Assembly (NCBI GenBank): GCA_004802705.1
Contig: SGPL01000228.1
Coordinates: 1-49,308 of the forward strand
Length of the DNA stretch: 49,308 nt
Direction of reading: 5' to 3'
Origin: Bondarzewia mesenterica
Taxonomy: Eukaryota; Basidiomycota; Agaricomycetes; Russulales; Bondarzewiaceae
Shown here one piece after another: positions 2,400-28,019 of this stretch (position 1 is its first letter; the number at the start of each line of letters is the position of its first letter). Below the pieces are notes generated by a model. It worked only from the letters and a program-made list of their open reading frames with translations. It searched no databases and had not been told where the DNA came from. Position numbers and translations under genes: made by a program.

Positions 2400-3260
2400 G
2401 CTACTCATACACATTATTTCTCTTAAAAAAGGCATAGCATACACACTCTTTGTTAACTTAGAGAATTAAATGTATCAGCACTTGGCTACAGATAGCTGCA
2501 ATAGTTCTCAAATTATATTGAAAAGATAGCCCTATTCATAGAAGCTCAAAAATAGCTTGGTCATAGGGGCTGATAATAATTAGTAGATTAAATCACTTAG
2601 CTTGACTATTGGTATCTCAGTGTGATGAAGTCAATCTCTGAGCAATCACTAAAATCCTATTAAAGACCAATAGCTAACAGCAGTGAGATCAATGAGGTTA
2701 GTGATATCATTGAGTTTTTTAATGCATTCAATTTTAGCAAAGTATTATTCAAGATCCTTATTATACCACTGAGGATGATTGATGACTCAACAAAGTCTTA
2801 AAGCTATTAGTGGCATCTCAAGTCAGAGTATCAGTTTTGAAAGCTGGCTAAATATTTTAGCCCATATTCAATAGTCTTTAGCAAAGGCAAAGAAATAGCA
2901 GCAGCATCAGTGATATGAATATCATCAAGGTATATTTTAAATGTTTCATTGAGAGGTGAATTAGTTTACTTGTATGATGTGTCTGTTCAAACTATTCTAA
3001 GGATATGTCTATTGACTCAGAAGGCATTCCTGTGCAGTCCTTCAAGTTATAATACAGACTAAGCTCTATTTAAGAATACTAATTACTATTATCTTTTAGT
3101 TTACACATTAGCTTTAACTTTGCTGCTGCATGTCATATTATAATCTTAAATCAGCATATCATTATGCATCCTATGGGACAATAACTGCTAGTAACTATCA
3201 ATAATGTGATATTATCAATGTCAATAAAACCCACTAAAATTATCTATAGCAAGCAAAAGC
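2400..3260 (-). pseudogene. TET/JBP-like 2-oxoglutarate/Fe(II) oxygenase, decayed copy 1
   Basis: Read on the minus strand, this region matches the better preserved copy at 26.7-28.0 kb piece by piece: 'LMCKLKD', then 'DCTGMP...S..IDIS...FEQTHH', then 'IAQRLTSSH' and 'VCYAFFKRNNVYE'. TET/JBP enzymes oxidise methyl groups of thymine or 5-methylcytosine in DNA using Fe(II) and 2-oxoglutarate. The iron-binding HxD appears as His-stop-Asp at 2614-2622 (CAC TGA GAT), where the other copy has His-Arg-Asp, consistent with CGA to TGA. Many further stops make it dead. It is divergent from gene X copy A, which starts about 950 bp away. The 5' limit is uncertain because upstream exons are too decayed to place. 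Family assignment rests on similarity to copy 2. Confidence 0.7.
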
Positions 3261-4214
3261 TAGTCAGTGATCCTTTCACACTCATATAGTTAGTGAAAGG
3301 TTAATGATAAGTAAAGCAAGGTGGATGTGCAGCCTCAGAGAGATTGTTGACCACTGAGTTTTTACTAAGACTTATAATATATATAATTGACAAAGGTTTT
3401 AATTTGCTTCAGCATCTATATTATGGCTTATTAGATTGAGATAATATAATAGAGTTTATAGAAAAGTGTAGGAGTTGTATGAGACTATTGTTATAAATAA
3501 GAAGGATAAGGGGATGATTAAAAGTACAAATTTTAGATAGGGTCATAATAATATGATATTTAAGCTTTTATTTTAGTAAGAGTGTGAGAAAGTATTTTTA
3601 TATCATAATAATAAAAGAAATTGAATTACAAAGTATGTACAAGAGTTTGAGTAATTTGGGGATGAGTGTTATATCTTGGCCCAATCAAGCAAGTCTTATG
3701 ATTTATACTACAAGAAACAGTTCACAGCATGCTAAAAAAACATACTATAAATAGGTAAGATGATAATTATTTAATTTTTAGATGCTGACACTGACAACAA
3801 ATGAGAAATTGAAAGGATTGAGTATATAAATTATATTCATGCTCATTGTCCCTGAATCTATCCTCACTGAGAATATTATTGTCAACTCCATACTATGGTC
3901 ACATTTTTAGGATTTAATAGATCATGAACATTAGAGTGTATACATATTATATATATATCATTGCTTTTATTTTTTATTTCACTCATTGTAATACTTAATT
4001 CAATTGGGCTACCTATAAGTACTGTGCACCATGTGGCTAAGCATTGCCTTATTAACATCATTCATATTGTACCCAATATCACTCTTCAACTTCTGTTAAT
4101 GATAAATGCTAGAGATTATGCAGACAGTATTTGCACTCTTAGGAATAGATATGCTATACACAATAGATGGCTATTTAAATCTTTCTCTATCTCTGTCTCC
4201 TCATCTTTTCTCCT
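3261..4214. other. Divergent intergenic region between TET/JBP-like copy 1 and gene X copy A
   Basis: By position this holds the 5' exons and shared promoter region of the two divergent genes, but decay is too strong to place exons or promoter elements. Open frames of 98 and 75 codons start at 3961 and 4106 and run into the beginning of gene X copy A; neither is convincing as an independent gene. Confidence 0.4.
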
Positions 4215-5345
4215 CCTTCTCCTATGCATTAAAGTTTTATATCCTTCAAATAGATAAAAATGCTGCTCTGTTTACTGATGCCAAAATTATTACATTTATC
4301 TGCACTTTAGAAGATTGGCTCTCTAAAAAGTGAAAGAATCATTGAGAATTCCAAAGGGGACTATGTCTAATATCTCTCTTAAAAAGGCTAAGTATATTGA
4401 TAAGCTGAGAAAGGTGAGTTTGTTATTGTACATGGGCTTAGCATGCTCACTGGTAGTAACTATCATTCTATGAGAAATTTATTAACTATTTTGAGTTTTA
4501 GCTTTTACAACAACTAATAAAAGAAATAATTAAGTATTTCTATCATTAGACTCTCTAACAAATTATTATAAAGGTCAAAAAGAAGGAGATCTAGGCATAT
4601 ATCAATGAGAAGCACTCTATCACTCTAGTCACTTTTTGACAGTACATCAAGCATTATTAAAAGGTTTTATAGTAGAAGACTAAAAATAAGATGTATTGGA
4701 GAGCTAAAAAAAGTACCATGAGCTTACTGATAAATAAAATGCAGCAACCTCACCACTAAAAGTATAAAGAGAGTGAGTAGAGTCCTCCTGTCATGATCTT
4801 TTGATGTTAACAATATTATAGTCTTATTGAAAAACATAGCCACTAATATATCAAAAAATTCACTCGATGAATATACAAGAAGTTTAAGATATAAGTGTTC
4901 ATTCTACATGCCTCTTAAAACAAGGATATAAAAAAATCTATACATAGTGAGTTTATTGTTACTGTTCAGGCCAATGAATGTAAAACTAATGGCATTGGCT
5001 TTAGCAGTCAAAATTATAATAATAAAAATGAGACTTTACTATTCATTAAGACATACTCTGAGTAGGCCACAAGAAATATCTTAGAAGATTAGAGCAGTAC
5101 ACTAAGAAGTCATTTTATAAGTAAATCCTCTAAATTATTATCTCATTTTTGACTTATTTATGTAAGTGTATCTCTCACCAATGTCAATGTTAATTATGCT
5201 AAGGCTAGCAAGAAGAATAGCAAGAAGCTCTTGCTAAAGTAGGCATTTGCAGAAGATAGTAAAGTGATGCTTTTATTAATAAAAGAGGGCAATTAGTTAG
5301 ATTTAGAGCAGATAAATGTACTAATTTAGTCAGTGATGATAGCCA
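4215..5345 (+). pseudogene. Gene X (unrecognised family), decayed copy A, 3' truncated
   Basis: This plus-strand relic is homologous to copies B (22.8-25.9 kb) and C (48.0-49.1 kb). Ordered matches are 'FTDAKIITFICTLEDWLSKK' against B 'FSKAECGLLTDSLKEWLTKS'; then 'YIDKLRK' followed by a GTGAGT splice donor at 4424, exactly where B has its first intron after 'IKLQK'; then 'KKKEI-AYINEKHSITLVT', 'YIKKFTR-IYKKFKI-VFILHA', 'NNKNETLLFIKTYSE' and 'KKLLLK-AFAEDSKVMLL'. Dashes mark stops, mostly explicable by single C-to-T or G-to-A changes. The family has no function I recognise. The match ends near 5345, where a minus-strand gypsy RNase H begins, so the downstream part seen in B and C ('EQYLSDGYL' region) is lost. 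It is divergent from TET/JBP-like copy 1. Confidence 0.72.
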
Positions 5346-5349
5346 CTTG

Positions 5350-6330
5350 AGAGTGTAAAATCTAAGGCATCAGTAATTAGTGTGCAAAAAGTGGTAGAGT
5401 TAAAATATTAGAGGATTGAAAAGGAAGCAAATTTATGCTTTAATAGTTAGAATGCATTTTGTGTAATATCTAAAAATATATAAAAAGAATATTTCTTTTT
5501 GTTAGTAAAGTCAAAAAGTGAATACTAGATGAATAATAGTCAATAAAGTGATAATGAAATTAGTAAAACTGAAGAATAATTAGAACCTTCAATATTAGAG
5601 GTTATGATCATCAATGATAATTGTAAGCTTCTTAGAATTCATTTTAATGCCATCAATACTTATGGTATACTTATCATACTCAACTTTTAATTTATCTCAC
5701 TCATATTTTACTAAATTAATGCAAGTATATATAATATGAAGGCAATCAATAACAAGTTGAACATGACCATTACGTTCCTTTTAAATGTATAAAAAAAACT
5801 AAAATGTCATCTAAATAAATAATACACATAACATTAAGCACAATATGAAAGACATCTTAGATAAGAGCCTAAAAGCTATAGGTCTATTAGTTAAACTATA
5901 CATTGATTAAGCTATATAGAATAATGAGGTGTTTAAAAGGTCTAAAAGGGATGTAAAAAGCAGTTTTTTACTCATCTCCCTCTTTGATCTAAAGTGAACT
6001 ATATGTAAAAATAAGATTAATGACAGTGAAAAGTTTATAGTTTTGAATATGATTCAGTAAATTATGAACAAGTAAAATTGGGTATTGATTCTTTTTATAA
6101 TAGCATTGAGGTCACAAAAGTCTATACAAAAATAGAGATTATTCATCTTCTTGAAAATGAGGTCTAAAAGATAGTGTTTTGCTATCCTCAATCTCAATGC
6201 TAATATGATATAGGCAGTATAATGGGTGCTTATTGAATTTAGCTTTAAAGAAAGTTGAGTTGATATAATCTATATATTTAGAAGGTATAAATAGCTAAAG
6301 AGTTAGATTTAGAGAATGTAAGTTAACAAT
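5350..6330 (-). pseudogene. Ty3/gypsy reverse transcriptase and RNase H remnant
   Basis: The minus strand shows, in order, 'KYIDYINSTFFKAKFNKHPL' (the entry region before gypsy RT), 'FTVINLIF' (first catalytic block), 'KEGDE-KTAFYIPFRPFKHL', then 'CIIYLDDILVF' at about 5810-5775, the YxDD active-site box with both aspartates present, then 'GIKMNSKK' and RNase H 'LKHKFASFSIL-YFN' and 'TDALDFTL' near 5350. Stops interrupt most segments. The RT would copy element RNA into DNA and RNase H would remove the RNA strand. The reading ends at the junction with gene X copy A near 5345. Confidence 0.8.
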
Positions 6331-7969
6331 AGATATGGAACTATTCAGTTTTGTTAGGTCATCAGCAAGAGATGAAAATATAGAGGTCATACAAATATAT
6401 GTCAATAAGCTGCTTAACAAAAAGCAAAGGAGACAGACATCATCAAGCATTGAGTGTGTCATTTACATAAACATTTTTAGACTAATAGTCTCAATGTTAA
6501 AAGCTAAGTTCAAGGTGGGGTTAAAGTAATCATAGCTAATCTACTAAGTGAAGATGCACAAAAATAAGAAAGAAGTTAAAGCTACAGCATTTGAGTTTAT
6601 CGAAGTTGAGTTTGAGGCTATTAGTGATGGTATGAATGATAAAAAGTTGATTTTTAGGTGCAAGGAGATGTAAGAGGCATAGATCACACTAGTTAAATTA
6701 AAGCTTATGTTGACAGCAGAGATAAAGTTTAAGATCAAGGGCAATAGCTATAATATAAAACTAAAGCTATTTATAATAATCATGACTAAAGATGTTTAGG
6801 TAGAGCTATAGCAATCAAGGGTGAGATTGTCATCATATTAGTTGATGTGAGAGTTGTAATATATAATTTAGTTAAGACCTAAGATGATAAAATAACTTAT
6901 AAAAACTACAGCAAGAGTTAAAAATCTAGAGTGAGTAAAAATAAATAAATAAGTAATAACATCTTGATCAGTTTAGACATGATTAGATAATTATTAACTA
7001 CTATAATAAGTATAGAAATATTCTTAAAAGTATTAAATTACTCAAAAATGCATAAAGTTTGCATATCTGAGTCAATAAGCATATATGTGTGAATGAGTTC
7101 TTGATTAATAAAATCTAGCACAATAGAGATAAAAAAATATGATGAGTAGTTCAAAGAAGGGCCAGAAGCTACAAAATATACTTAAAAATAGAAAGAGGAG
7201 TCAAGTTATTAGATGTGTCATAAGCTGAATAGATGTAAGTGGGCTTCAGCATGATTATTTGATCATTAAAATGTATCTCTTCATCAATTGAATGCTCTAG
7301 GACATTAAAAGGACAAATAGCTAAGCTTTTTTGTAGAGAGTTTGCCCTGTAAGGCCTTATTATTATTTTTATTTAGGTAGTTATTTATTATATGGCTAAT
7401 AATTAAAGGTCATTATTATAACAATCTTTTTTTCTTTTACTCAGTAAGTAGACTGCATTTTTTTTTAAATATGCATCATAATGATCTTTATCAAAATATC
7501 AAGAGAAAGTTGTTACATCAGGAAAAGTATACTATGTAAATAAACTCTAATTTATTTAATCCATCTAATTGCATTTTATTTTTAAAGAATATTTATATTT
7601 CAAATCAAATTCTTATTAGATCTTATTAACTATAAATATAATTATTATTATTATCATAATAAAGTATATGAGTATTATCTGATTTACATTTTAGAAATCA
7701 ACACCAAACTCCACCTGCTCAAACACTCACTCTCAGACATCCATAAGAGATCATGATCAAATGTTATATATTTAAATCTTTACCATAATTATTTTGATTA
7801 AGTCAAACTAGCTATTAAATTTAAGCTTATAAATTATGATACTTTTTACTGAAACCTTTCTAATGATGTAGAAGATGTTTGAGGTTGATGCAAATCAAAA
7901 GATAAGAATAAACACTGATAGGTAAGGCAAAATTTGTTGCAAGTTAGATTTAGGTCTATATATTAAAAT

Positions 7970-8150
7970 ATATGAGTGGTTAAGAGTGTTCATACAGAAA
8001 GTTAATAGTAATCAGTAGCTAAGATCTTAGGGATCAAACCTAGCTGATGGCAAAAAAAAAAAGTTAGTAAAAATAAATAAAAAGTTGTAATAATAAATAA
8101 TGAAGAGCTTGAGTTCAAATCTGAGTAATGGCATAATAAAAAATGAACAG
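7970..8150 (+). repeat. Possible tRNA-derived SINE relic
   Basis: A box-A-like stretch (GAGTGGTTAAGAGTG, 7974-7988) is followed about 45 bp later by a box-B-like GGGATCAAACCT (8030-8041), then 'AGCTGATGGC' and an A11 tract. A second box-B-like GAGTTCAAATCTG (8110-8122) is followed by 'AGTAATGGC' and an A/T-rich tail. Both boxes become good RNA polymerase III B boxes if CpA is read as a former CpG. No cloverleaf can be folded convincingly, so this is a repeat relic and not a functional tRNA. Confidence 0.35.
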
Positions 8151-8489
8151 CCGAAATTTATTCTCAATTGTTATTAGGTTATTCTTATTCAAAGTACAAT
8201 AAGCAATAAATTTACTGGTTACTCAAAAAGAGTAGATATCCAATAAGCTAGATTAGACTGTATACTGTAATAACTTATAATTTGTAAATAATAAATTCTT
8301 ATTTACATAGTGTGCTTTTCCTGATGTAGACAGTAGTAAGAGCATGCGAGATAAATATTGATTGATGCCTGCTACTAAAAAATTACTTGATGTTATATAC
8401 TGCCATTTTTTTTAATCTAGATCCTCATTATAAAGTCTATTATCAATGTCAATAGGTAAAGAATGAGCATATATTAGCTTAGCTTAAAT

Positions 8490-8905
8490 AGCTCACTTTA
8501 AATTATGATTAGATATGTATATCTTTATCTCTTTAGTGCAGTTGAGATAAATGAGCAGCTTACAAAATTATAATGCATATTTTACACACAAACTGATTTG
8601 ATACAACATCTCAATTTTATGAATCATAATGTGAACTGAATTAACATTATCTAAGTGCTTACAAAAGTCAATAATAAGTGTACTAAAATTATTGAGTAGT
8701 TCAGTGTTTCTTTTCTTAATAATATTAAATTAAGATTTAGAGGAGCCACTGCATAGACAAGAGTTCAAATAGAGAGCTTTATTTTTGTCAATAGAGAGTG
8801 AAGCATATGAGAGGTCTATTGTGCCCTTGAGTTCATCAATGAATAGCTCTATATTAATAAAGCTATCTTTAAATACTATCAGCTCTTTAAATTTTGCAAT
8901 TTAAT
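8490..8905 (-). pseudogene. Ty3/gypsy Gag remnant
   Basis: The minus-strand translation holds 'AKFKELIVFKDSFINIELF', 'DKNKALYLNSCLCSGS', 'KIEMLYQ' and 'YLNCTKEIKIYISNH'. The order and spacing resemble the retrotransposon Gag capsid domain, which has a tryptophan- and leucine-rich helix region followed by a 'L.Q...V..Y...F..L...L.W...' segment. Gag forms the virus-like particle. The assignment is from memory of the family pattern, supported by its position upstream of a clear gypsy RT on the same strand. No CCHC zinc knuckle was found in the following 500 bp. Confidence 0.55.
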
Positions 8906-9920
8906 ATAGTGCTAATAAGTCAACAGTAGCATCAAGTGAGGTGAGATCTATAGAAGGTGCTAGTGCTAGATTGGTAAAAGATATAAACAGTGTAGTGAGA
9001 TATTAAGTGATCATCTATAACATTTTATTGACTTGATATTGATTGATGCAAAAGTCAAAGGTGTATTGACTTAATATAGTGATAACATAAACTATATTGA
9101 CATATTCATTTCACAATAGTTGTATTGCCTATGATAAATTAAATATTGATATGAGAGTGATATATTCTAGATCAAGTGAGCTTAAAATTAGCATGTTTAT
9201 ATCTATAAAGTATGGTGTTTCTAGCTAAGAATTCTTTAAAGGGTCTATTTTTGTTAGTGAGTTACTTTTAAAATGAAATATACTAAGATTTTACTAAAAC
9301 TGAAGCAAGAAGGTTTTAGATTGAGACAATGGAGGAGCAAAGTTCAAAAAAGATGAGTTGTTAGTCTAATTAAACTATAACAGGTGAGGTTATCAATAAG
9401 TCAAATAAAAGTGCATATATAAGAATTCTCAAATAACAAGAGGCATATTACTAATGTTAACTAGATGAGGTACATGAGTAACATGTGACAGGTTCAGTAG
9501 AGCAGAGTCTGCAGCTAGTAAAGAAGACACAAGAAACATTAAATGTAGAATAGATCAAATAAGAGTTAGAATAGGTATAAATAGAGGAATAAATAGTGTA
9601 GAGATAATGAGAATATATCAGATTAATGATAAATTATCTGTTGTATATAGAATAGATATGACTGTGATGTAAGGCTTAAAGCCCTATATTTAACATGATG
9701 TATAAATTTATAATATCTATTCTATCTAATTAGCTATCATAAGGTACTCTGCCTCAAGAAGTATATAAACTTTAAAAGATAAAGAATATGACTTTTAATA
9801 TATAAATAAATCGAGGCTTAAAAATGAGATATATAAGATGAGTTTAGAACAAGATAATTTACTTCTCTGAGGTATTCAATAGCATATAGCAGAGCCTATA
9901 ATTAATTATATAATATAATT
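8906..9920. other. AT-rich spacer upstream of the gypsy gag
   Basis: A gypsy 5' LTR and leader would be expected here, but no partner LTR exists in the window to define it and no primer-binding site was recognised. No supported gene. Confidence 0.35.
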
Positions 9921-9922
9921 TA

Positions 9923-10030
9923 GGGAGTGAACAAGCTTAATAAAAGAAGCTCAATTATTTATTTTATAGAGGAAATAATTAATATTAATATATCTAAGGA
10001 GTGAGCAAGCTAAATAAAAGAGGCTATAAA
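9923..10030 (+). repeat. Local direct duplication, 75-bp spacing
   Basis: GGGAGTGAACAAGCTTAAT-AAAAGAAGCT at 9923 recurs as AGGAGTGAGCAAGCTAAAT-AAAAGAGGCT 75 bp later (about 9998). The two copies differ mainly by transitions and are set in nearly pure A/T sequence. The duplicated unit has no evident function. Confidence 0.55.
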
Positions 10031-12299
10031 TATAAATAAATATAAGTACTATAAGTAATATTAATATACAAGATTTACTTTGATTATTCATCCTACAAAG
10101 GAAAATAACTAATAAAGCTTTTCTATAGGCTTAGTAACTTATATAACTATTTAAAACTTGAGAACTCTCATATTAATATAAACACAAAGAAAAAGTTAGA
10201 GTAACTGCAAGGAGCTAGTGAGATGTTAACTCATAACTATAAGTTAATTTTTTTTTTATAATAAAGTCTTAAGTAGGACTAAGTAGGTATATAATTAAGC
10301 ACATTTCTCAATAAAAAAATTGAATTAGATTAGATTTGTACATATACTAGCATATTTATAGTTCCTTAGATTTTGATTGTATTTTTATATATATCTATAA
10401 CTAAAATAATAACTATAAAAAATAAGATAGCTGCACCATATCAAAATAGCATGTGCATATCATAATGAAATAAATAGAGCATTTATAAATAGGAGAGGCC
10501 CATTTAATTTGAACTATAAAGATAAAAAGTCATATGCATTTTGTATTAATAAATTTCAAAGAACAACTGTACTCAAACCTCTACCTATTATCTTTCACTT
10601 AAAAATTAATCCAATAGCTAAAGACTTTAATTTCAACATAATAGTTGTTGAAACTATATATCAATAAAGAGGCATTATTTACTGAGGATCCAATCACTTT
10701 ACTACAAGAATAATTTTTTAAAATTGCAATGTATGATAACATAATAGTATATTTATAGATAGGAAATGCATATCTAAAAATATATATTTAATAATTATAC
10801 AAACTCAATTGCACTCCTTAAATAAAAGATCGACTTTGATATTAATTTATTTAAAAGTTTGATAGAGTTTATATTAAATTTTTAAGACAAACTTGAAAAA
10901 AGTCAAAAATAATTCATATTATGCAATACAGTGGCCCTTTCTTATCATGACTTTTCAAAAGAATATGAACAGAGTTACATAACATGCTTTTCTTCAATTT
11001 TATAAAGTGATAGTATTAAGTTAGGTGAGTTCTTTGAGCTGCATGAGCACATAGAACCTCATGATAATGAGTATAAGGAAAAAAAAAATTATCATAGTCA
11101 TTTGATGCTAAAGATAAGGAGAGGAGTATAATGAGATCATATTATGATAAAGAGCATTTATAAGAGGGCAGAGAGTTAAATTGCTTTTTATTGCCCTTTA
11201 AAGTGTATGTAATTAATAAGGATTTATAAATAGTGCAAATGTATAGAAAAAATAGCTTAAGCCAGTTGTAGATGCTAGTACATTGTGTAGTTTTGAATCG
11301 ACTCATTTAGTTTTCATTAAGGCTGTATTTACCACTAAGATGAAATCTTTGCAAGAGGTAACTCTTTTCATCAAGAGGGATTCAGATGTATAGTGCACTG
11401 CATTAAGGACCTCTTACAGACCTCAAATGCTTATCCTTAAGACCACTCAAGTGGATTTATTTCATCGCATATGTTATTATAGGTGCCAAAAGTAAGCTTT
11501 ATTTTTTTGGTGTATAAAGAAAAGTGATTAATTACAATAATACAAGCTAATTTCAACCTGAGTATTACTTCATGCTATATTGTAAGTTAATTTAAAATTA
11601 TATACAAGGCTTTTGTCTAAAAATAGCCTTTCTTGATAGATTTTCAAGGGTAAGATTTGATAAATTTCAGTTGAATATGATGATACATATAGATTACAAA
11701 AAATGAAAGAGTGTCGAGGCTGATATCTAAGGAGAAGCCAATTGAGAGCAGATATATATAAGAGCCTAAAATTAAATTTGAGAGAGAAGCTATACAGTAG
11801 ATTAATGTAGCTGAATCATAGAGTTTAGTAAGAAGAGTTCAGCACTGTGGTTAATTATTATCTTATATTTCTCAAAATTTAGCTTAGGAACTATATTGAA
11901 AAGCATGCTGTACATTACAAGTAGGAGTTCTGGGCTGAAAGGATATAACAATCATCTAGCTGCTTCTTCCTCAGTTATATGATGCTATACAAATTTAACT
12001 TGAGACTCTTCATACAGGAGATGTAAGAAGTTATTCTATATATTAAGATAGAATAGGTTTGAGGTGTTTACTATAGGCTAAAAACCTTAATGAAGGCTAG
12101 TCATAATAAAATTAATAAATAAGTAGTTTAGATGATCAAATAGTAATTGTGTAAATTAATTAATATTAATTAAAGTAATAATATAGAATAGGTCAAGGTA
12201 TCCTAATATTGTTGCAAAAATAAAAGCACACCTGAGCCCATCCAGTGAAGGCTTGAAGATTAATAAAGTAAATTTAAAAAGGAACACAGATGGAGTAAA
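10031..12299. other. AT-rich degenerate sequence, no identifiable gene
   Basis: Protein-like segments appear on the plus strand around 11,240-11,470 and 11,880-12,060 (for example 'QLYDAIQI' and 'ETLHTGDVRSYSIY'). They are broken by stops and I do not recognise them. The rest is low-complexity A/T sequence. Confidence 0.3.
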
Positions 12300-13480
12300 A
12301 ATGTACTTAAAATTATACTATATAAAAAGTGATGATGCCATGATATAAGTAATTATAATAGCTCACTTTCAGTTCCTAGAGGGATATTTTTTGTCTGCAT
12401 GCTAATTCAATCTGCATTCAGTGCAGATATAAACATATTAGTAGGTCTCACTATTAAGTGGACACTGTTTCTCATTTTATCTTTAGCAAGCTATCTTTAG
12501 TTGTTTAGCTCAATTATCTCCTTTTCTACTTTTAATGCTCTTAAAGGATCTAACAACCCCAAATCTAATGCTTATTGTCCACTAAATTCAAAAATCATCA
12601 AAAACTAAAAAGTCATTAAGTATGAGTTGATAATAGCTTGCAATATAAATGCAGATAGCTCAGTCATAAAAGATAATTTTATTATAAAAGGATGAATGCA
12701 GGCCACAAAGTGTCAGTTGATATAGCTGGCATAACAGTTGAGTATAGCAAATTGATGCAAAAAAATAAATAAATATGCTTGAGCAGTTGTAGTCTAGCTT
12801 ATTATTCATTCTCCTTAATTTAACACTATTTTAATAAGCATGGTAGATGATAAAGTGAACTCAATTCTACTGACCTTTTTTTTTATGAATGACTGAGTAA
12901 GATGTAGATATAAAGACTGTAAACACTTAGTCAAGGTAGACAGCTTTTTCAAATATGATGTGCATTTACTCAGTATTAAAAAATAGTAGACAGCTGACAG
13001 TATTGATAATTAAAGACTTGATAAGTTTGAGGTTAATGAAAAAGTTTGTGAGCATAGTACATACTCATTTGAGAGACTCAGATAGTAGCTTTTTTATTAT
13101 CTATATCTCAATGAGCTATGAGTAAAATTTTAGGTCAATATAACATTAATAATATAATTCTCTAGCTCTAGATGTGTCTTCATCCTTATTAGAATCTAAT
13201 TAAATATCAACATGATTTTATTTATTTTAAGTGGAAATATGTCCTAGCTAATCATTGTATTAAGCAAATCTTTTTTTTAATCTCAGCATTAGTTTTGCCC
13301 CTATCTCTTAAGCTAATTATAAGCACGATATACAACTGATGCTCGAAGTTGTCAAGCATGTTGAAATAAACACCAAAAGACTGCTTAATGGACTTTTTTA
13401 AATAGCTCTTCTTCTGAGATCATATCTCAAAGTTTAAGTATAACATGCAGCGTTATACTTCATCTGCTTCAAAATTTTTG
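12300..13480 (-). pseudogene. Unrecognised degenerate coding remains
   Basis: The minus strand has several protein-like runs: 'YLKKSIKQSFGVYFNMLDNF', 'IISLRDRGKTNAEIKKKI', 'LARTYFHLK' and, further on, 'FTPSVFLFKFTLLIF'. They are separated by stops and frame changes. The composition suggests a dead mobile-element gene, but no catalytic motif could be found and the family is not recognised. Confidence 0.3.
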
Positions 13481-14214
13481 CACAATCTCAATACACCTTT
13501 TTAAGAGTTCATCATATAGTATACCTCTTATATTTAACTCTTTATTATATATAAGCTCTGAGGTGTTATTCTAAAAATATAATATATTAAATAGAAGTTA
13601 TTATAATAGTATCAGCATTGTCAATACAAGTAAGAATTTAAAGTGATTTAGACTATGGTTGCTCAGAATTGAGAATTTAATAAAAAAAAATTAATGTATT
13701 AATAGATAGATCATAAAATATATACAAAAGTTCTAGGAAAAATGAGAGCAAGTCTAATTAGTGAATAAGTGAGGCTACCTCAGAGTAAAAGGTACTATAT
13801 CTAAGTAGAATAAGAGTAAAAAAAAGAAGATACAGACTATATGGCCTTTTTAAAAAGTGTCTGTCTATAGCGTATGCTTAGCGAATGCAACATTATTGTA
13901 GATGCTATAATATGCTTAATAGAGAGCAAATATGAGTAAAAGCTTAATAAAGAGCATCTAAGAAGTGCACTATGTAAGTATAACTTATAAATTCAAAAAT
14001 GCTCTAAGAGAAACTAACAAGATTAAACTCTATTAAACAAGATTGAACATCATTTAATCCACTCTATGGTGTTCTTTTATTTGGCCTTCTCATTATTGAC
14101 TACATTATTAATATTGCATTTATTACAAAAATGTTATGATGTGCATGACTGAAATCATCATTTTATTTATTCTAAACCATCACTATGCCTTGACCTTCAA
14201 ACATCATTAGAGCT
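13481..14214. other. AT-rich spacer
   Basis: No supported coding sequence or repeat was seen. It leads into the 5' side of the plus-strand nuclease-like pseudogene, whose start was not found. Confidence 0.35.
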
Positions 14215-17689: not shown

Positions 17690-18060
17690 TCTCTTTCTCT
17701 TTTCTCATTGATAGTAACAGCTGCATCTTCTCTTACTTCAATGAGATATACTTTTGCTCAATCTTATCAGTCTTATCATGCATCATCTGTTCTATTGATA
17801 AAACTTTAGTTTTATTTAGCTCTTTAGCTCATTATATTAATGTCTATCATATAATAATTTTTAAACTTTTAAAATATAAGCTTATTACTCTTTTCAAACA
17901 CATCAGCTAAGCTTTTAGCATTTAAAAATATTAGTTTGAGGCTTAACTCATAATTATCATATTTAGAATGTCTCTGCCTTAGCTTAATTTAAAGCTTTTA
18001 TTATTACAAAAGAGCATCCAATGTTTAAAATGTGAGGACTTGTTCTTTATAACATCTAAA
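17690..18060 (-). pseudogene. Coiled-coil-like protein remnant
   Basis: The minus strand shows 'LKLIFLNAKSLADVFEKSNK', 'KFKNYYMIDINIMS', 'KVLSIEQMMHDKTDKIEQKY' and 'QLLLSMRKEKEKRGFF' in order, with stops between them. The charged, heptad-compatible segments suggest a coiled coil. Function is unknown. The non-random protein composition in otherwise A/T-rich DNA is the main support. Confidence 0.35.
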
Positions 18061-18555
18061 AAGCAAACTCCTGCTCTAATTCTATAATTATTATAAGAGA
18101 GAAAAATAATGAATGCTAAATAGCTAAACTTATTTATGAATAAGCATTGTGATCATAACCTTTAATAAGTAAGGCTTATTATATAGATGAATAACGCTAT
18201 AAAAATATTATAGAGAAAAAGATAACTTATGAGCTTTATCAATTTATATGATGCTTTAAAAGTATCAAAAAATAAAAGGCAATTTAAGTAATAAAAGCTT
18301 TAACTTCAGTTTATAAGTTGCTTTTAACTATATAAAAGTGCTCTTATTGTTAAAAGACTTACATATGTGTATTATTAAACTAAAGGTAATTTAAGTCAAA
18401 AATACTATATAATAATAACTAGATATTTATAATATAGTATAAAGACAAAGACTGTTATTAGAATATAGCTTGTCACTTTTTTATCATTAAAGTAAAAAAA
18501 ACATGTTTACTATATCAAATTTAAAAAAAACTTAATTTTTATTAATTAATAAGCT
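18061..18555. other. AT-rich spacer
   Basis: No gene or repeat could be supported. Some plus-strand runs ('REKNNE', 'ALTSVYKLLLTI') are too short to interpret. Confidence 0.3.
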
Positions 18556-19130
18556 TTTTTTTAGATTCATCATTTGTTTATTAGTAGCTATCAAATATAC
18601 CTTCATCAGAAAAAACTAAGATTATCTCATGATCATTTATTTTTAACTTATGATGATAAAACATTAATATCTCAATAATACTATATTAATTTTAATTCTA
18701 TTTTCAAATTATAAATATATTTATTAAGAACTTTTATATATAGTATAAAATAGCATATTACTTTTGATCACAATATTATCAATATCATATTAAACCTTAC
18801 TATGATCTGTTATCATATCTAAGATCTTAATTTTATAATTAGATTGAATATATTTTTATTTTTATTAAACTATCCATTATACTTAGCTATATATAAATAT
18901 TAGATATAAGATCCTATAAAAATTTTGATTAGAGTAAATGTACATATATTTAGATTAAATTAGATGTTAAATTCAACTAGACTATTGCATATAGATATTA
19001 GTTCTATTAAGAACAAATAAATATATAATAAAAATATATAAAAGTAAACTTATATATATATATTATCAAAAAGAAATATTGAAAAATATATATAACTCAA
19101 AAGAAGAGATGTAAGATATATATATTAAAA
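18556..19130. repeat. Relative of the 44.7-45.5 kb MITE-like element
   Basis: The internal sequence matches the interior of the element at 44,727-45,503: 'ATTTTTAACTTATGATGATAAA', 'TATTAATTTTAATTCTATTTTCAAATTATAAATAT' and 'CCATTATACTTAGCTATATATA' occur in the same order in both. The long inverted ends are not evident here, so this is either an older copy whose ends have decayed or an internal fragment. The 3' part is A/T simple sequence. Confidence 0.5.
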
Positions 19131-20849
19131 ACATGTGATAAAAATATATAAAATTCAAAAAAGAAATAGCAAGCTGTCATAATGTCTAATTAATAGCCTA
19201 TTAAAATGGACAATCTATAATATACTTATATATCATAATAATTACAGTAATCTTGTGATTAAAATATGTACCATAACTTTTTTATTCTACACTACTATTG
19301 GACACTGATATGCATATATGCATTGCTCACTACATCTTACATTGCCTCTTCAAACTGCATAGTATATAGCACTGATTATTCCATGACAGATATGAAAAGC
19401 AGTGACTACAGCAGATCTAGTTTAAGATATGCTAGTGGATCAAAGTATACAAATAATTGACCTTAAATAAGCATTACATCAGGCATTAACTCTCACTATC
19501 CTTACAATTCTCCTTGCGTAAAAAAGCTAGCACAATAGTTAGTGTGATTTATCCTAAAGTGAGGCATAATCAATAAAGCTTTTAAATTAGTGTGAATCTT
19601 AACACACAAGTTATATGTGTAATTCACTAAAGTCGTTAAGTTTTTATTAAAGTTTTTAAATATAATGGTGAGAAATCTTGAAGATCTAAAAATATGCATT
19701 GATTAATATCATGCAGCAACTGCTAGTTACTCATTTATGATCACAAGTACAAGTGTTTCAAGTATGATAGCTCTATTCAGGTGGTATGCTACTGATGGCC
19801 CTAAGGGAGAAACAACACTCTAAAAGACGCTATAAGTGATGAGTAAAATGGTGAATCAAATAGTTAAATGCTATAAAGGCATAAATGTCAAGATAGTCAA
19901 GTTTTAGTGACTAGCTTTAAATGCTTAGTTGAGTCATGCCTTGTTAGAAGTAGCCTCGTGTAGCTATTTCTTTTTTAGTTGAATGAGGTCAATGAAGTCT
20001 ATATATCTAGTATGATATATTTAATTTTGAATAAATATCTTTATATTATAATTAACTACTGTTAAATTTTTTTTACTATTTTGATAATATAAAAGCTAAC
20101 ATCAATTAAATATTTATAAGGTTAAAGTATTTTATTAATGTTAGCATATTAACTATTTTTATTTATAATCTTGAAATATGCAGCTTGTACAACTACTATT
20201 TAATATAGGTATAATTATTTTATATTCACTTTTAAAAACAATTCTCACATATTAATAAATATATAATTATTTAATATTGAGCATCTATTTATAATATAAA
20301 AGATAAATTTAAAATAAAGTATTCTGCATGTTCTCTTCAATATCATTATGTATAAAACAGACTATATAGTGGAGTAATATTTATAATAGTAAAATAAAAG
20401 TTATAGATATATTTTATTAAAAAAAAATAGACATATTATATAAATTTATTTAATGCTGACTATGACTTCACCTGCATCATTGTTATCATTATTATTGCTA
20501 TTAATATTAACACTATAATTAGGATTCAACAAGGGTTACTTGAGCTTTATCTTCTACATATTATATTAAGTGCACACTTATTCAATTGTGTCTTAATAGT
20601 ACAACTATAAAAAAATTTCTACTATTAAAAATAACACCAGCAAAAAAGATGCCATTACTTTATCATAATTTCTCTCAAGCATGGTCAAAATTATTATTCA
20701 CAATATCAAAAATAAATTTGTAGACTTTCATTAGCTTGTTCATAATATCATGTTATCTCTTAATTATCACTTTAGACTAAGAAATAGAGTAGCAAAAGAT
20801 GTGTTTATTATTTATCATCTATAAATGTGAGCTTGATAAGCTTCTAAAG
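19131..20849. other. AT-rich region with one less AT-biased block
   Basis: Between 19,260 and 19,460 and between 19,700 and 19,960 base composition is more balanced than the surroundings. The 64-codon plus frame at 19,266-19,460 is Ser- and Tyr-rich and unrecognised. Nothing else could be supported. Confidence 0.3.
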
Positions 20850-21640
20850 GACTTCACTAATTATGTAAAGCTATTTATAATATTAAATATATATTTCTCA
20901 TTTAAAACTTATAAAATTGCATATATTCTTCTAAAAACACTTGAATATAGATCTTTTACTAAAAAAGTTATTAATATACTCACACAAAGTGCACAATGAT
21001 GTACTCCATTAGACACTTTTTATAAGCAGTGATCACTTAAACAATTATTTAGACAATCATCAAAATCTTGCTGATTTAATTGATGTTGTGGCATTTTATT
21101 TAGTATTTTTCTAATTTTATTTCTCTTCTTTATTGATTCATCATCTCTCTTTTGTTTGAGATAGTTTAAAACATTTAGAGATATTCTGTCTATTGTTTCC
21201 TTGTTTCTGATGCCATTTGATTATTATATTTTATTTTAGTTATTGTGCTACAATGCCACTCATTGTGTTATTATTCTCATGTCTCAAATTTTTTATTCTA
21301 TTTTTTATTATGTATTCTAACATAAATACCTACAGCCAAGTGCACTCTGTTCTCTAATTACTTTAGACTGCAGATGCATTTTTCCTCTCTTATTTATTAT
21401 GTATCTATAGTTACTCACTTTAGATTGTAGTGTTTACATATACACTTTATTGTTGTTCTCTTAGCATTGCTAGTTATTTGTTTTCACTATACTTAAATGA
21501 ATCATTATAATCTTTCTCAAGATAAATTTAATCTAAAAAGGTATAAATAAACTTTTTACTATAATTAGCACACTTTTTCTCTTTATTCTTATCCTTCTAT
21601 AGTTGATTGACAATTATGCCTATGCAATCTTCTTAAATAA
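20850..21640 (+). pseudogene. Decayed relative of the 30.7-31.0 kb sequence, split by an insertion
   Basis: Positions 20,940-21,070 align with 30,740-30,870: 'ACTCACACAAAGTGCACAATGATG' here against 'ACTCACACAAAGTACATGATAATG' there. Positions 21,515-21,640 align with 30,884-31,010: 'AAGATAAATT-AA' through 'TATGCAATCTTCTT' against 'TATGTAATCTTCTT'. The intervening 440 bp (21,075-21,510) is absent from the other copy. Both could derive from one protein gene ('KVINILTQS' against 'GVINPLTQS'), which I do not recognise. Confidence 0.5.
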
Positions 21641-22400
21641 TATATATTTTAATAAACAAATTGATGAGTAATATAGTATACACATTCTATGAAAAATAAA
21701 ATCATAGTGTGAGTGGCAACTTGTAACTATCAAGAGTCATCTGACATAGAATTAGGATGCATAATATTTAAAATTTTTAAATTACTATATAATAAGCATC
21801 AATTTATAATAATACCCTGCCCTTTAGATAATACCAGTTTTATAACCTTGCTTACAAGGTTTATAGGAGGGTCATAAGCTGTCATATAATCAGCAATCTT
21901 TGATAAAATGCATGCACAAATAATAATAATAACTAATATTTTGAATGGTGAGTATCCTTGTGAAATTATACATAAAGGATGGGATCTAGTAGTACAATGC
22001 AATGATCTCTATTGTAGTGCTGCATGGATATGTAGGTAGAGGTAAAAAAACTGGATGTAAGTAACAAGGAGAAAGAGATAGTGATGGTAGAGTAGATGGC
22101 TGCAGTGAAAGCAACAAAGACAGTGATCATGTGTAGAGGATGACACCAAGTGTGAGCATTGCAGATGGTAAAGGATGACTTATTGGCAGAGATCCAAGCA
22201 TTGGACATGAAGGTGAATGTTATCTAGGTGAAGGAGAAGGGAGACTAAAGTAAGGTGATAAAATTGATAATAGAGAAGGCACAAAAAGAGCTGATGAAGA
22301 AAAGGCTATCAAAGTGGGTACTAGAGTTCTATAATGAAGATGAGTTGCATGTAAGTATAGAGTAAATTGATCACTAATGAGAGTGTTGACTATGCTGATG
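21641..22400. other. Spacer with purine-rich plus strand
   Basis: At 22,020-22,360 the plus strand is rich in A and G and translates into Lys/Glu-rich segments ('AAVKATKTVIM', 'KKRLSKWVLEFYNEDELH') interrupted by stops. It might be a coiled-coil remnant. The minus-strand open frames here are shadows of this bias. Confidence 0.3.
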
Positions 22401-22402
22401 AT

Positions 22403-22432
22403 GAATTGAGTATGTTGCACTGTACTCAATTT
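22403..22432. promoter_or_regulatory. 30-bp palindromic site, left group, site 1
   Basis: The left arm GAATTGAGTATGTTG is followed directly by an arm whose reverse complement is AAATTGAGTACAGTG. The arms differ mainly by transitions. Five more sites of the same 30-bp design occur at 22,727, 22,784, 29,728, 29,785 and 29,829. A second, unrelated inverted repeat (AGATGTAA / TTACATCT) lies at 22,445-22,465. Site function is unknown; dyad symmetry suggests binding by a dimeric protein or a repeat terminus. Confidence 0.6.
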
Positions 22433-22790: not shown

Positions 22791-22813
22791 GTCTGGCATG
22801 CTGTAACTAATTT
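22727..22813. promoter_or_regulatory. Two 30-bp palindromic sites, left group, sites 2 and 3
   Basis: Site 2 is 22,727-22,756: its right arm is the reverse complement of GAATTGAGTATGATG, and its left arm GAATCAAGTTCAATA is degenerate. Site 3 is 22,784-22,813: its left arm is GAATTGAGTCTGGCA, and its right arm is the reverse complement of AAATTAGTTACAGCA. Site 3 abuts the 3' end of gene X copy B. Confidence 0.5.
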
Positions 22814-25800
22814 CTTACACTGTGATAAATTGCTGCATTACTAGTGTTGAATTCGGCCTCAATATCAGCATCAGAATCAGCATCGGCACTCTCTTCAGGG
22901 ATTGAAGAGACTGTCACCTTGGCCTTTTTTCTCTTTGGGATATGGGCAGGAAGTCTGGTGTCAGTGTCGGCATCGGCATCACCTTCAGCAATCGGTGAGA
23001 CTATCACCTTTGCCTTCTTTCCATGAGGGATATGGGTGAGGTCGTCAGCGTCAGCATCAACATTCACATCCTCGTCCGATTCCACTATCTGTCTATGATA
23101 GCACTTCTTAGATGGCCAGTCAGTTGAAATCAATTTATCCTGTTCAACAAGGTAAGGTTATTCCCCTTGAGGATGGGCAATATTTGCTGGGGAAATCTTG
23201 TCCTTCCTCCCTGTCTCTTTTGCCTTTGTTTGTTTCACATCCTGTATCCCGTCCACTAATGATCGACCTTTGGCCTGTCTCACTTTTTCTTTATCGATGA
23301 CTTTGCTGACTTCTTTGCTGCTTGAGCCAGATTTTAGCATGCATTCACTGTTTGCCTCACTTTGACCTTCTTTCACCGACTTCTTCTTTTACGACCCTTC
23401 GATCTTGATGGTGATCTCCTTGCAGAGACTAGTGGCCATTGTATCAGCCTCAGTGAAATCAATATTAGATTAGAGAATATAAGGAGGTGTGCCTTCTACA
23501 CATCTGGTGTCGGGGCCATCAGGATCAGGCCAAGAGAACTGCCTTTGATAGATGTCATTAAGCAGGAAGCCGATGGCGAGGACGATCCACCACAAATGAT
23601 CCTTGCTAACAACCTTGCCTTTTTCGTTCAGATAGGCCAACTCGAACAGCCAGAGAAAGAATTCCTTTTGGTTGTCCTCAGTGTTGTGGACTGCCTCAGG
23701 AAAGAAGGCACTGGTGTAGCTCTAAGTGCACCACTCAGCGATTGGGATCGTCAGCCTCGGTGAATCCTCAGCTTGCTGGAAGAGGAAGATGTGAGTGATT
23801 GTAGTTGTGGGCTAGCTTTTGGATTACTCACCTCTCTGCCATAGATAGTGATGAGCATGTTATGAAACTCACTGTGGCTACTCAGGTTGAGCAAGAAGGA
23901 GTACTTGCTGATGTCATGGTCAGTGGCAATGTCAGCCAGGGCCACATTGGGCTCAATCATGAGGGGATGCTCTAGCTGCTGCTAGATAGCGATCTCCCAC
24001 TGCTCTATTCCAGCCTATGAGTCATTCGTGCTCTTATCCACATTGTCTTGGTCATCATCATTATCACTGCCCTCCAGAGCCTTCAGCTGCTTGATGATAT
24101 CATCAGCGTCAGCGTCAGTGTAGATGTCGAGTTCAGGTTCTTCATCCAACTCTAGGTCAGTGGCCTTTTCCTTCCCCTTTGATGATCACTTCCCCTTCCC
24201 CTTCACTGATGCCAATGCTAATGCCATTGATGATGCTGTGCCTGTTGCATTGCCCTTGGCCTTTTGCTTGCTCTTGACTTCACCATCGCGGTCTTCTTCT
24301 TTGGCTCCTTGTGTATCAATGTTATCCCACCATCATTGGTCCTATAGCCCTTGAAAACCACGAGTTCTTCATCCTCAGCTTGCCTTGCCTTCCAGTGGTT
24401 GATCAGCTGGACTACATCTGTCCTCATCATCTTCGAGGGCTCCTTCATGAGATATCCATCTGAGAGGTACTGCTCATCCATGTAGTCATCCCTATGCTCC
24501 TTCAGGTCACTCCAAGGTACAGTGCTCTTGGCATTGACACTGGCCTATCCTATTGAAAGAGAATAAATCTCAGTGAGCTCAGTTACTGGCCTAAAATCAC
24601 TCACTGTACATTGTGGTCATCACCGATTATATCAGTCTCTTCAACTGATCTAAGTCAGGATCCTGGCCAGCATCACTCTCTGGCAATATCACACGGCTGT
24701 CATCGGTGAAAGCTAATTCTAACAGAGGCTTCTTGCCTTTCTTGTTTCCAGTGTCAGCCTGATCGGCATCAGCATCGGCATTGGCTTGACCTGAGGAAAG
24801 ATGTCAATAAGAGAGATGACCGATATGCTGAGCACCATACCAAAAGCCTTAGCAGTGTATGCTCCCCACTTCTGCATAATGTTCTCCGACTCCCAATCTG
24901 TCTGGGTCTTAGTGAAGGAAATCGACCCATTTTCCTCATTATAGTCATGCCTATAATTACCGAAGCCATTAAAGGTTCATTTTCAGCTCAGTCAGCATCA
25001 ATCCACTTACTATGCAAACACAATCCTCCTATTGATGTTTTCAGCTGCATGCAAGACAAACACCCTCATTCTGAGCTACCTGTACATCTGCCTTGTGAAC
25101 TCCTTGATGTATTTGACACAATGTTTTTTGGCCTGACTGTGTCAGCATCGACATTATCGGGGTGGTCAAAAAGAGGGATGGGAACTCACTCTCTTTGCAC
25201 CTCAATGGGTGGAGTGATAGCATTTCACTTGTCGGCCAGCTCATCATACTTCTTTAAGTCTCTGGCCAACATCTCTACTTTGATCGCGATGAGGGCCTCC
25301 TAGTAGTATGAGATGTATTCTTGAGATGTGGTGATAGAATACTTGTTGTCAATATAGGCTTAGATTGCCTTCTTTTTCTCCCGCTTGATGATCTCATTGC
25401 CTGTCCAGTGGCAAAAATAGTTAATCTTGTATTTTGGCTTCTTTTGAGGAAGTCAGAACTCGAATCAGTCCGCAATATCCTATCGGAATGTTAGTGCACA
25501 TCGGTGAGGACGCTGAGCCCGCAACGAAGCAAAGACTCACCTTCTGCAGTTTGATAGTGTAGTTAGCCAACTTGAGAGGGATGGTGGGGATGCTTCACCT
25601 TAGCCTGCTAGCTTGGAAGCTGTCACACAATTGCTCCTGCAAATTTGATCGATGGATGCCTGACTTGGTCAGCCACTCCTTCAAACTGTCGGTGAGTAGA
25701 CCACACTCAGCTTTGCTGAATTGGGCCTTATTGTCTTCTATAAGGGGATGAAGAATTTTGGAGGGGGATGGAGAGGGAATGAAGGGAGAGAGAGAGGTGA

Positions 25801-25888
25801 TTTTAAGAGCCGACCCTGTAGAGATGGAGTAAAAGGGATCAATTGATGTAATTTGTCCCTTAGAAGAAGAATCTTTTAGTATCTCCAT
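22807..25888 (-). pseudogene. Gene X (unrecognised family), copy B, best preserved
   Basis: The family is not one I can name; from memory, similar hypothetical proteins occur in mushroom-forming fungi. The start is taken at the ATG at 25,888. Exon 1 (about 116 codons, Ser/Pro-rich then 'LTDSLKEWLTKSG') ends at 25,541. Intron 1 is 25,480-25,540 (GTGAGT...CTAAC...TAG). Exon 2 holds 'YKINYFCHWTGNEIIKREKK', 'SITTSQEYISYY', 'IKVEMLARDLKKYDELADK' and 'ITPPIEVQRE', followed by a GTGAGT donor. Later come 'YIKEFTRQMYR-LRMRVFVL', 'YNEENGSISFTKTQTDWESE', a short (AD)n tract, 'KKGKKPLLELAFTDDSRVI', 'EQYLSDGYLMKEPSKMMRTD', and a Lys-rich tail with two repeats of about 30 residues containing KKAKV and Asp-Ala runs. 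The basic clusters suggest nuclear location (inference). In-frame stops (TGA, TAA, TAG) are each one C-to-T or G-to-A change from Arg, Gln or Trp. Divergent from TET/JBP-like copy 2. Confidence 0.7.
25480..25540 (-). other. Intron 1 of gene X copy B
   Basis: The donor is GTGAGT (complement of 25,535-25,540), there is a CTAAC branch-point-like motif (complement of 25,490-25,494), and the acceptor is TAG just before 25,479. The length of 61 bp and the signals are typical of basidiomycete introns. Copy A keeps a GTGAGT donor at the homologous codon (4424). Confidence 0.7.
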
Positions 25889-26640
25889 GCTCTCTCTGAT
25901 GCTGAAGCGTGTTCACTGACATGTTCAATCTCATCGGGAAACCTTTATTGAACAAGAACGCTCTATGTCTGGCTTGGTATATCAAGTCCTAATAAAAGAA
26001 CAAGTATCTCCATGATTCCCCAACATTAGTTTCTCCGAAAGTTGACAGGGTGTGGAGGGTGCAATGTTAGTGCTCTCAGCGTGGCAATGTTTGACGTTAT
26101 TGAGCATTGGTATGGCCATAATATCTAATCTTTTATAGCTGTTATTGTGCTGTTGTTGTTGCCAATACCACAAAACATTTATACTCTCATGACATGTATT
26201 AGATTTTATGTTGTCTTTATTTTATGAGTCTGTGCCTTTTTGGAGCATTCACAGAAGCCAGTTGCTTAGAGTGAATGATAACACCTGCCTTATTGGGACA
26301 CAATGCACTGATTATTCAAACATCATCTCCCACTTGCTCTTGAATGATACACACCTTTTGAGACACAGCACACAATCTAAAATCAACTCAAATCTTGCAC
26401 ATAATATTGATCACCAGTGCATTAAAGTTGTGCATCTGATTATGAATAATGTCCTGCACGTTACTGTCTGATACATAACATTTCAACATCTCTGCTGTAG
26501 CTCAACATCTTTTATCAGTGCATTTAAGTTGGGGTCCCTCATTCTGTAATTATTTTCCGCAATGTCAAAGCACTTGAAAAGTCACATAAGTGTGACCTAG
26601 TCTTTAAACTGCTTTCTTCTAGTAATCATCAATCTTCTTG
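25889..26640. promoter_or_regulatory. Divergent intergenic region between gene X copy B and TET/JBP-like copy 2
   Basis: About 750 bp separate the ATG of gene X (minus) from the first protein-like segment of the plus-strand oxygenase, so this must hold the promoters of both, and perhaps 5' exons. No TATA box or shared operator could be picked out with confidence. The 87-codon plus frame at 26,208-26,471 is unrecognised. Confidence 0.4.
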
Positions 26641-27192
26641 CTTTCAACATTGTTAGCAGCTTTGATCCACATTCCACATCCCCAATATGTCAATCAGCAG
26701 ACTCCCCAACACAGACAAGCCTGCAAAATGGATGCTACAATGTGTAAAAGCATTTGTCGAGCACATGCATGCTGAATTTCTACAAAAACGTGGTGGCTGA
26801 CGGTCACCCCGAGGCTGAGCAAAAGGACTGCTTGACTCACTGTTCATGATCGGGCAACTATATGAATGTGAGCTCATCATCGACAAGATCATCCAAGCAG
26901 CGGACAATCCTAGTGAGCATTGAGCTTTGACTGTTGCCACGTTACTGACCTCATTGCTATGTCACCACCCATGCTCGAAGTCCAAGTGCCATGGAATGCT
27001 CAAAGATATGCCAAGTGGGTTTGGCATGGTCTCCAGGGTGGCGCCAAAGCTACCAAAAAATAGCTAAAGTGAGCCTACTCCCCAATGCATCCCCAGCCAT
27101 TCCCCCATTATACCTTACCGGTGATAGTGGTGGATATCCATGAGAAGATACTTGAATAGTATCTTCCCGATATTCTTACAGCAGAGAGACAG

Positions 27193-27242
27193 GTATGTTG
27201 ATTTCCTGTCATACTTAGTAGATGATTTGAACATTCCCTGAG
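27193..27242 (+). other. Probable intron of TET/JBP-like copy 2
   Basis: A GTATGT donor follows 'TAERQ', and an AG at 27,241-27,242 restores the frame used by the next exon (phase 0). The branch point is weak, so the acceptor is tentative. Confidence 0.5.
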
Positions 27243-27407
27243 GCCATGATGTAGCTGGCAACAGTGAAGTTAAGGCTGATGTGCAAGCTAAAAGACTTGG
27301 GCAATTGGCGTGCCCAATTGGACTTGTATCAGTCTCCTGAAGACTGCACAGGAATGCCTCCTAGCACGGTGGAAATATCATCAGGCTGGTTCAAACAAGC
27401 ACACCAT

Positions 27408-27502
27408 GTAAGCAATTTTCATTCGCATCAATATGGAGATTGGGTACCTTGTCACTGACATACCTATTGCTATCCCCATCCCCATCCCTGTCCTAATCCT
27501 AG
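27408..27502 (+). other. Intron of TET/JBP-like copy 2
   Basis: The GTAAGC donor directly follows the 'QAHH' codons and the CTAG acceptor precedes 'TAEFSLKC'. Removing these 95 bp joins two frames at a codon boundary, which strongly supports the intron. Confidence 0.75.
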
Positions 27503-28019
27503 ACCGCTGAGTTCAGCCTCAAGTGTTCGGTGAGCTTCAATGACTGGCATGACGATCTTGGATGCCACCAATAGCTCCAAGATTTCACTGATTTATCTGC
27601 CATCCTCAGTGGAATATTAAGGATCATTCATCCTGAGCAATACTTTGCCAGCATAGAATGCATCGAGAAACTCAGTGACATCACCAATATCGGCGAGCTT
27701 GTTCGCCATTGGCTGTCAGTGTTCAATAAGATATCTATAATCACTCAAAGGCTCACCCCACTACATCGAGATGGGAACAACCGTGCAGAGTGGTACGACC
27801 TCTTTGCACCCATCGGCCCATACAAAAATGGCATCTTTGAGCTCCTCAGCATCAGTGTTTTATTCCAATACAACTCAGGGACCATGGTCACCCTTTGTGG
27901 CCAGGTATTGATACACTCAGTCTCTGACATTGATAGTGAGTGAGTGTGCTTTGCATGGTTCATGAGAGACAATGTTATTATACATCTGAAATTGATTATA
28001 GCATGCTATAGTTAATTCT

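Follow-up and report, generated by a model that had tools for sequence, protein, structure and literature searches.

DNA transposons that carry a TET/JBP oxygenase gene (TET+ elements) have been published for Agaricomycetes, Russulales included, under the name Kyakuja. According to the portions of that report used here, Russulales show TET+ Kyakuja only, two Laccaria Kyakuja families have CA..TG termini without inverted repeats, and the TET+ PHISTA and IS3EU elements of Pucciniales carry an extra gene, either a 'third protein' or an alpha-kinase (Kojima 2025, PMC12730594). Here, we analysed a stretch of 49,308 nucleotides from the russulalean fungus Bondarzewia mesenterica (contig SGPL01000228.1 of assembly GCA_004802705.1, hereafter the window), in which an earlier note, made from the letters alone, had recognized a TET/JBP-like oxygenase gene paired head-to-head with a second gene, called X, at two places. 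Both places are very probably dead, partial copies of a multi-copy Kyakuja-type (KDZ) transposon of about 14 kb that carries X, TET and KDZ in a fixed order.

The window is contig C144 of the 33-Mb assembly, the other contigs of which are labelled likewise (C106, C194, etc.). The whole assembly was searched with Tet_JBP, KDZ (PF18758) and X queries, together with queries from sister copies, and all rows were merged by script into loci. The final merge contains every search row, including the 53, 54 and 132 rows from three later searches, and, given that only the best candidates were scored in these searches, the locus counts are lower bounds. We detected at least 43 TET loci, at least 48 X loci and at least 50 KDZ loci. 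X was located within 6 kb of 29 of the 43 TET loci, the two pairs of the window included, and in all 29 it lay 5' of TET on the opposite strand; the X of window copy 1 was entered by hand from DNA similarity, and without copy 1 the count is 28 of 43. With X evenly scattered, chance alone would be expected to place it within this distance of about 0.9 TET loci; the estimate takes no account of repeat clustering, and the uniform orientation of X and TET is independent of it. KDZ was found within 6 kb of 28 of the 43 TET loci, at the 3' side on the TET strand in 27 cases and at the 3' side on the opposite strand in one. Extending the limit to 10 kb adds one divergent X, one X at the 3' side on the same strand (C189) and one KDZ at the 5' side. 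A narrower count, using Pfam matches and one X query, yielded 28 TET loci, of which 21 had X and 18 had KDZ within 4 kb, and a hand-picked subset of the X rows gave the same outcome as the full merge. TET was also found at the expected place beside two X loci, C639 and C629, that had initially been counted without it. The order of the unit is X in one direction, then TET and KDZ in the other (X<-, ->TET, ->KDZ), and the element also includes, beyond the X/TET pair of the earlier note, a KDZ transposase 3' of TET.

Inward-facing termini of the GAGCCTATTCAGT type gave 83 matches with up to three mismatches, compared with one for the reversed pattern, and those of the CACATTATTCAGT type gave 67 matches with at most one mismatch, compared with none. 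On C118, termini of these two types bracket 14.2 kb (4129-18361) containing X, TET and KDZ. Among the eight end pairs scored for a 7-bp target duplication, the duplication is identical in C27 and C431 and agrees at 6/7 positions in C501, and none of 50 mismatched end pairs reached 6/7. With these features, the X/TET/KDZ unit looks like a DNA transposon.

A number of observations weigh against this. The other five of the eight end pairs fall below 6/7 (C80a 5, C118 4, C80b 2, C434 1 and C80c 1, with C80b and C80c sharing one end). No target duplication is visible at C106 (37083-51038), C166 or C323, all of which have the same end type, GAGCC, on both sides. Among the end pairs scored, a perfect duplication was seen on no full-length three-gene copy, and of the clear cases (C27, C431 and C501) only C27 is known to hold X; neither TET nor KDZ was detected in C27, which is probably an internally deleted copy. 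The ends themselves pair CA.. with ..CTC, both sharing TATTCAGTGCC, and the inward ends CACATTATTCAGT and GAGCCTATTCAGT have CA at one end only, so that CA..TG termini free of inverted repeats are not what we see here. In addition, the partner is absent within 6 kb for 14 of the 43 TET loci and 19 of the 48 X loci, and 8 of these 14 TET loci have KDZ at the usual place (C166, C204, C259, C42, C487, C618, C723 and C810).

These eight loci, and the fact that X has no known function or domain, are what would be expected if X were a passenger in a TET+KDZ transposon with no role in the life of the element. We examined six of the 14 TET loci that have no X nearby, and these appear to be truncated, interrupted, decayed or close to a contig end. 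The C6 locus is truncated within the spacer, retroelement-like reading frames (judged by eye) lie immediately upstream of TET on C618, and the C33 and C42:2815 loci are close to contig ends. Given that C204 matches the X-bearing C639 unit as far as the X edge, and that the C487 match ends inside TET, these two suggest loss of X and not its original absence. Moreover, the orientation of X is kept across subfamilies down to 32% protein identity, with a low ratio of nonsynonymous to synonymous substitution rates (dN/dS). We regard a passenger X as unlikely.

Copy 1 of the window (1297-5348) is 70-76% identical overall, at the DNA level, to C194, C364 and C303. It includes a decayed KDZ transposase remnant (1297-1651, minus strand), which matches, over about 355 bp and with 72-77% DNA identity, the KDZ-coding sequence of C194, C303, C364, C106 and C487; the KDZ domain of those relatives was placed by PF18758, and the PF18758 search listed no match in the window. 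The decayed TET/JBP gene with its 3' flank follows (1652-3460, minus strand; 70-72% DNA identity to C194 and C364), its start lying near 3460 by alignment with relatives. A remnant of the TET domain was detected at 2332-2667 (minus strand) with a sister-copy query, and the Pfam model matched 2428-2673 with 25.7 bits, under the cut-off, across three TGA stops and one TAA stop. Compared with C194, the interval that separates TET from the KDZ remnant is about 1.45 kb shorter, the missing sequence falling between 1651 and 1652. A spacer presumed to be a divergent promoter (3461-4249; about 75% identity to the spacers of C194, C364 and C303) separates TET from the N-terminal half of X (4250-5348, plus strand), the start codon of which is now ATA. 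This X was recognized from DNA similarity (4170-5348 aligns with X-bearing units of C303, C194 and C364 at 70-72% identity), from a comparison of start codons and from a very weak protein signal of 7.7, 12.2 and 15.0 bits, and it is absent from the rows of both X protein searches of the assembly. The similarity stops at 5348, about half-way through X, and at 1292 copy 1 abuts the terminus of a neighbouring element (TACATTATTCAGTACCTT, 1275-1292, minus strand with the interior leftward; a pattern match with one mismatch). Copy 1 is defective: only half of X and a small part of the transposase remain.

Copy 2 (22834-27975) shares 89% identity with C106 across 4.8 kb, and its identity to C46 is 88% across 2.7 kb. 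Its X (22834-25741, minus strand) has several exons and an ATA start codon, lacks the C-terminal tail present in C106, and is also represented by a partial NCBI protein model (P0003). Its protein similarity runs from 25741 down to 23473, and DNA identity with C106 extends it to 22834, a left end that falls inside X relative to C106. The spacer, likewise a presumed divergent promoter (25742-26687), shares 88-93% identity with those of C106, C254 and C46. The TET/JBP gene (26688-27975, plus strand), identified by a Pfam match and DNA similarity, keeps the HxD motif, and its Tet_JBP domain (27578-27967, plus strand) scored 48.3 bits against a Pfam cut-off of 34.9, with an in-frame TGA at 27941. 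Similarity stops at 27975 with all seven contigs that reach this point (C106, C46, C303, C194, C364, C204 and C487), and from 27976 there is a different repeat, which is present at C388 from the same point. No KDZ transposase remnant belonging to copy 2 was found in the window. Copy 2 is also defective, being cut at both ends and carrying a broken TET.

Near-palindromes of about 30 bp resembling AATTGAGTATGGCATGCCATACTCAATT occur at window positions 22404, 22785, 27990, 29729 and 29830. Two of them lie within about 20 bp of the two edges of copy 2, a position suggesting that the sequences on both sides are parts of a single repeat family, by which the fragment was cut or captured.

The head-to-head arrangement of X and TET reported in the earlier note was confirmed at both places by TET domain matches and by protein and DNA matches of X. 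The first-intron donor of X that the copies were said to share is AAG|GTGAGT in both, and also in C106, C194 and C303; the start codon is ATA in both window copies, compared with ATG in C106 and C194. The claim that both genes match between the two copies held for TET, with 132 bp at 73% identity in a direct comparison, but this match is short, and X is linked mainly through intermediate relatives. An alignment of the two spacers, which had been proposed, gave no match (best expectation value (E) 0.30), each spacer matching those of its own subfamily at the identities given above. The two copies belong to different subfamilies and have nearer relatives on other contigs, so that they are not recent duplicates of each other, and we reject the segmental duplication of one unit, which the earlier note had named as the finding that would speak against mobility.

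Divergent neighbours that share a spacer are common among co-regulated fungal genes, and both copies lie on one contig; X and TET might, on these grounds, be a co-regulated host gene pair that has been duplicated segmentally and does not move. Such a host pair is very hard to reconcile with 29 divergent pairs spread over many contigs, most of them with KDZ beyond TET, with the element-type termini close by on several contigs, with stops in most of the TET copies listed, and with the separate subfamilies and unmatched spacers of the two window copies. We consider it highly improbable in comparison with a mobile X/TET/KDZ element.

Pairwise distances of X and TET from 11 loci (55 pairs) are strongly correlated, with a Mantel r of 0.87 that was reached in none of 10,000 permutations. 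Together with the 29 of 43 TET loci that have X nearby, all 29 divergent, this co-divergence supports the earlier proposal that the pair moves as a unit. The dN/dS values of X are 0.25-0.46 in six near pairs, 0.20-0.24 for C74 compared with C380 and C719, and 0.14-0.15 for C106 compared with C194 and C193, pairs in which dS approaches saturation. Saturation is complete, and the ratio uninformative, in three comparisons between C74 and the other subfamilies, and CpG decay makes all of these ratios approximate. The values fit a gene that was coding and under selection while the elements spread.

In the better copies, the matches to X fall in seven to eight blocks, consistent with a gene of several exons. 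The longest model has about 950 residues; its N-terminal half is conserved, the linker is acidic and rich in lysine, the tail is basic, and the composition shows acidic stretches as well as lysine-rich blocks. No Pfam match to X exceeded the cut-off. Tat, tRNA-endonuclease, DUF6572 and L14 were rejected as identities for X, as their matches fell short of the cut-offs or were weak and dispersed among individual members. X being itself the KDZ transposase was also rejected, as X has no KDZ match and is separated from KDZ by TET. The predicted structure of X has a mean predicted local distance difference test (pLDDT) score of 36, too low for assigning a fold. Protein searches for relatives, which required shared 5-residue words and in part scored the best 7998 candidates, gave Bondarzewia sequences only, and a scan of viral contigs found none; this is not the same as X being absent elsewhere. 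No description of X was found in the portions consulted of the literature on TET/JBP, on Kyakuja, Dileera, Zisupton and KDZ elements, and on Bondarzewia mesenterica.

X may nevertheless have been described already. Iyer is said to have noted, in 2014, the linkage of TET with KDZ and additional proteins in KDZ elements, a divergent HMG domain among them, and X may or may not be one of these. If X were the divergent HMG-domain accessory protein, the kind of element and the host group would be the same, and the N-terminal half of X is predicted to be mainly helical, in a model of very low confidence. On the other hand, no HMG family appears among the Pfam matches of six X sequences at E up to 5, a search in which the HMMER filters drop most weak matches, and none in a profile search against PDB; the word HMG is also absent from Kojima 2025 (PMC12730594). 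We consider this identity a genuine possibility, somewhat short of an even chance.

Traces of a C-to-T mutation process are present in both window copies. Comparing copy 2 with C106, C-to-T changes on either strand affected 134 of 366 CpG, 128 of 815 CpA, 64 of 626 CpC and 33 of 616 CpT sites. The observed/expected CpG ratio is 0.58 in C106, 0.35 in copy 2 and 0.01 in copy 1, which has 31% GC and C-to-T changes in all C contexts. This decay pattern fits methylation followed by deamination, apparently stronger or longer in copy 1. Hypermutation has been reported as undetected in Agaricomycotina, in the part of the report used here (Kojima 2025, PMC12730594), and the C-to-T change in the transposon copies (window 1297-27975 compared with C106, C194 and C364) possibly reflects a process resembling repeat-induced point mutation (RIP). 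A CpG-biased decay footprint in an Agaricomycete is the mutation pressure that a TET enzyme would counter.

Regarding the type of oxygenase, the TET domain of C106 has CcTet (PDB 7vpn) as its nearest solved relative, with E 7e-22, and keeps HRD (HxD). Counting from the His of HxD, the positions of Gly331 and Asp337 are occupied by Ser and Asp, the same residues as those given for Kyakuja TETs in the consulted portions of Kojima 2025 (PMC12730594). By the residue criteria of that report, the TET of this element would be of the AG type. The KDZ-family transposase that characterizes TET+ Kyakuja is present as well, with PF18758 near 28 of the 43 TET loci. Considering these features, the Bondarzewia element may be filed as Kyakuja-type, not as a settled member, and the terminus feature of the Laccaria families may not define the clade. 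The preference for Kyakuja over Zisupton or Dileera is tentative and rests on the 7-bp duplications, the TET type and the statement on Russulales in the available part of Kojima 2025.

An intact element would have X on one strand and, facing away from it beyond a spacer (about 0.8-0.95 kb in the window copies), TET/JBP, with KDZ about 2 kb further on the TET strand. Following published proposals, the KDZ transposase would move the element, and the AG-type TET would oxidize 5-methylcytosine on it, countering host methylation and C-to-T decay. X would be co-expressed with TET from the shared spacer. Considering its composition, low dN/dS and fixed place beside TET, X is probably a nuclear helper, DNA- or chromatin-binding, of the oxygenase or the transposase. 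A more specific role, in which X would be a dedicated TET partner that brings the 5-methylcytosine oxidase to the methylated DNA of the element or protects its ends, the X-TET pair being a counter-silencing module kept over long divergence, is speculative, and we would give it only a modest chance. In transposons that encode a DNA-demethylation enzyme, mobile DNA acts directly against silencing by the host. A transposon-borne enzyme of this kind would need a way of finding its own element, and a constant, apparently selected neighbour of the oxygenase gene is a specific candidate for this step.

The remaining part of the window contains other traces of mobile DNA. A third, decayed fragment of X (copy 3, 47998-49125, minus strand) is nearest to the C74-type subfamily, a C74 X query matching 47998-48453 and 48865-49125, with weak hidden Markov model (HMM) matches in addition. 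Two element termini of the CACATTATTCAGTGCCTT type were identified by the terminus pattern, at 47328-47345 (plus strand, interior rightward) and 49121-49138 (plus strand, interior extending past the contig end). Termini that face the same direction, 0.6-1.8 kb apart, were observed at C487 15754/16388, C323 30400/31013, C166 6122/6936, C462 22517/23331 and window 47328/49121, a pattern that would arise if elements inserted close to the termini of others like them. Tandem arrays with periods of about 40 to 190 bp are located shortly inside termini (window 606-1034 and 47647-47822, L023 247-580, L024 5274-5910); they look like subterminal repeats and are possibly transposase binding sites. Direct repeats at 31935-32267 and 39800-40132, with 86% identity over 333 bp, flank a weak gag_pre-integrase match below the cut-off (37679-38002, minus strand), and the region 31935-40132 is probably a decayed Copia-like long terminal repeat (LTR) retrotransposon. 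The region 6000-22000 has 25.6% GC and an observed/expected CpG ratio of 0.08, contains no stop-to-stop reading frame that reaches 90 residues, and resembles repeat DNA that has decayed heavily.

Compared with the known systems, the Bondarzewia unit shares with TET+ PHISTA and IS3EU of Pucciniales the general plan of a TET-bearing transposon with a further gene, but those elements have other transposase superfamilies and another TET type, as described in the consulted portions of Kojima 2025 (PMC12730594). In contrast to CcTET of Coprinopsis cinerea, the TET of Bondarzewia is located in a multi-gene element, and the copies in the window have been inactivated by a stop, truncation or decay. TET-bearing Kyakuja elements are already known, and the Bondarzewia unit resembles them in its KDZ transposase and AG-type TET/JBP, in the 7-bp duplications seen on some shorter relatives, in one CA end, and in CcTet-like catalytic residues with an Asp337 equivalent. 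Unlike TET+ Kyakuja, its second terminus reads GAGCC inward, and a short, imperfect inverted repeat, TATTCAGTGCC, is common to both ends. It also adds X, a gene not mentioned for Kyakuja in the portions of Kojima 2025 used here, which is divergent from TET in every pair.

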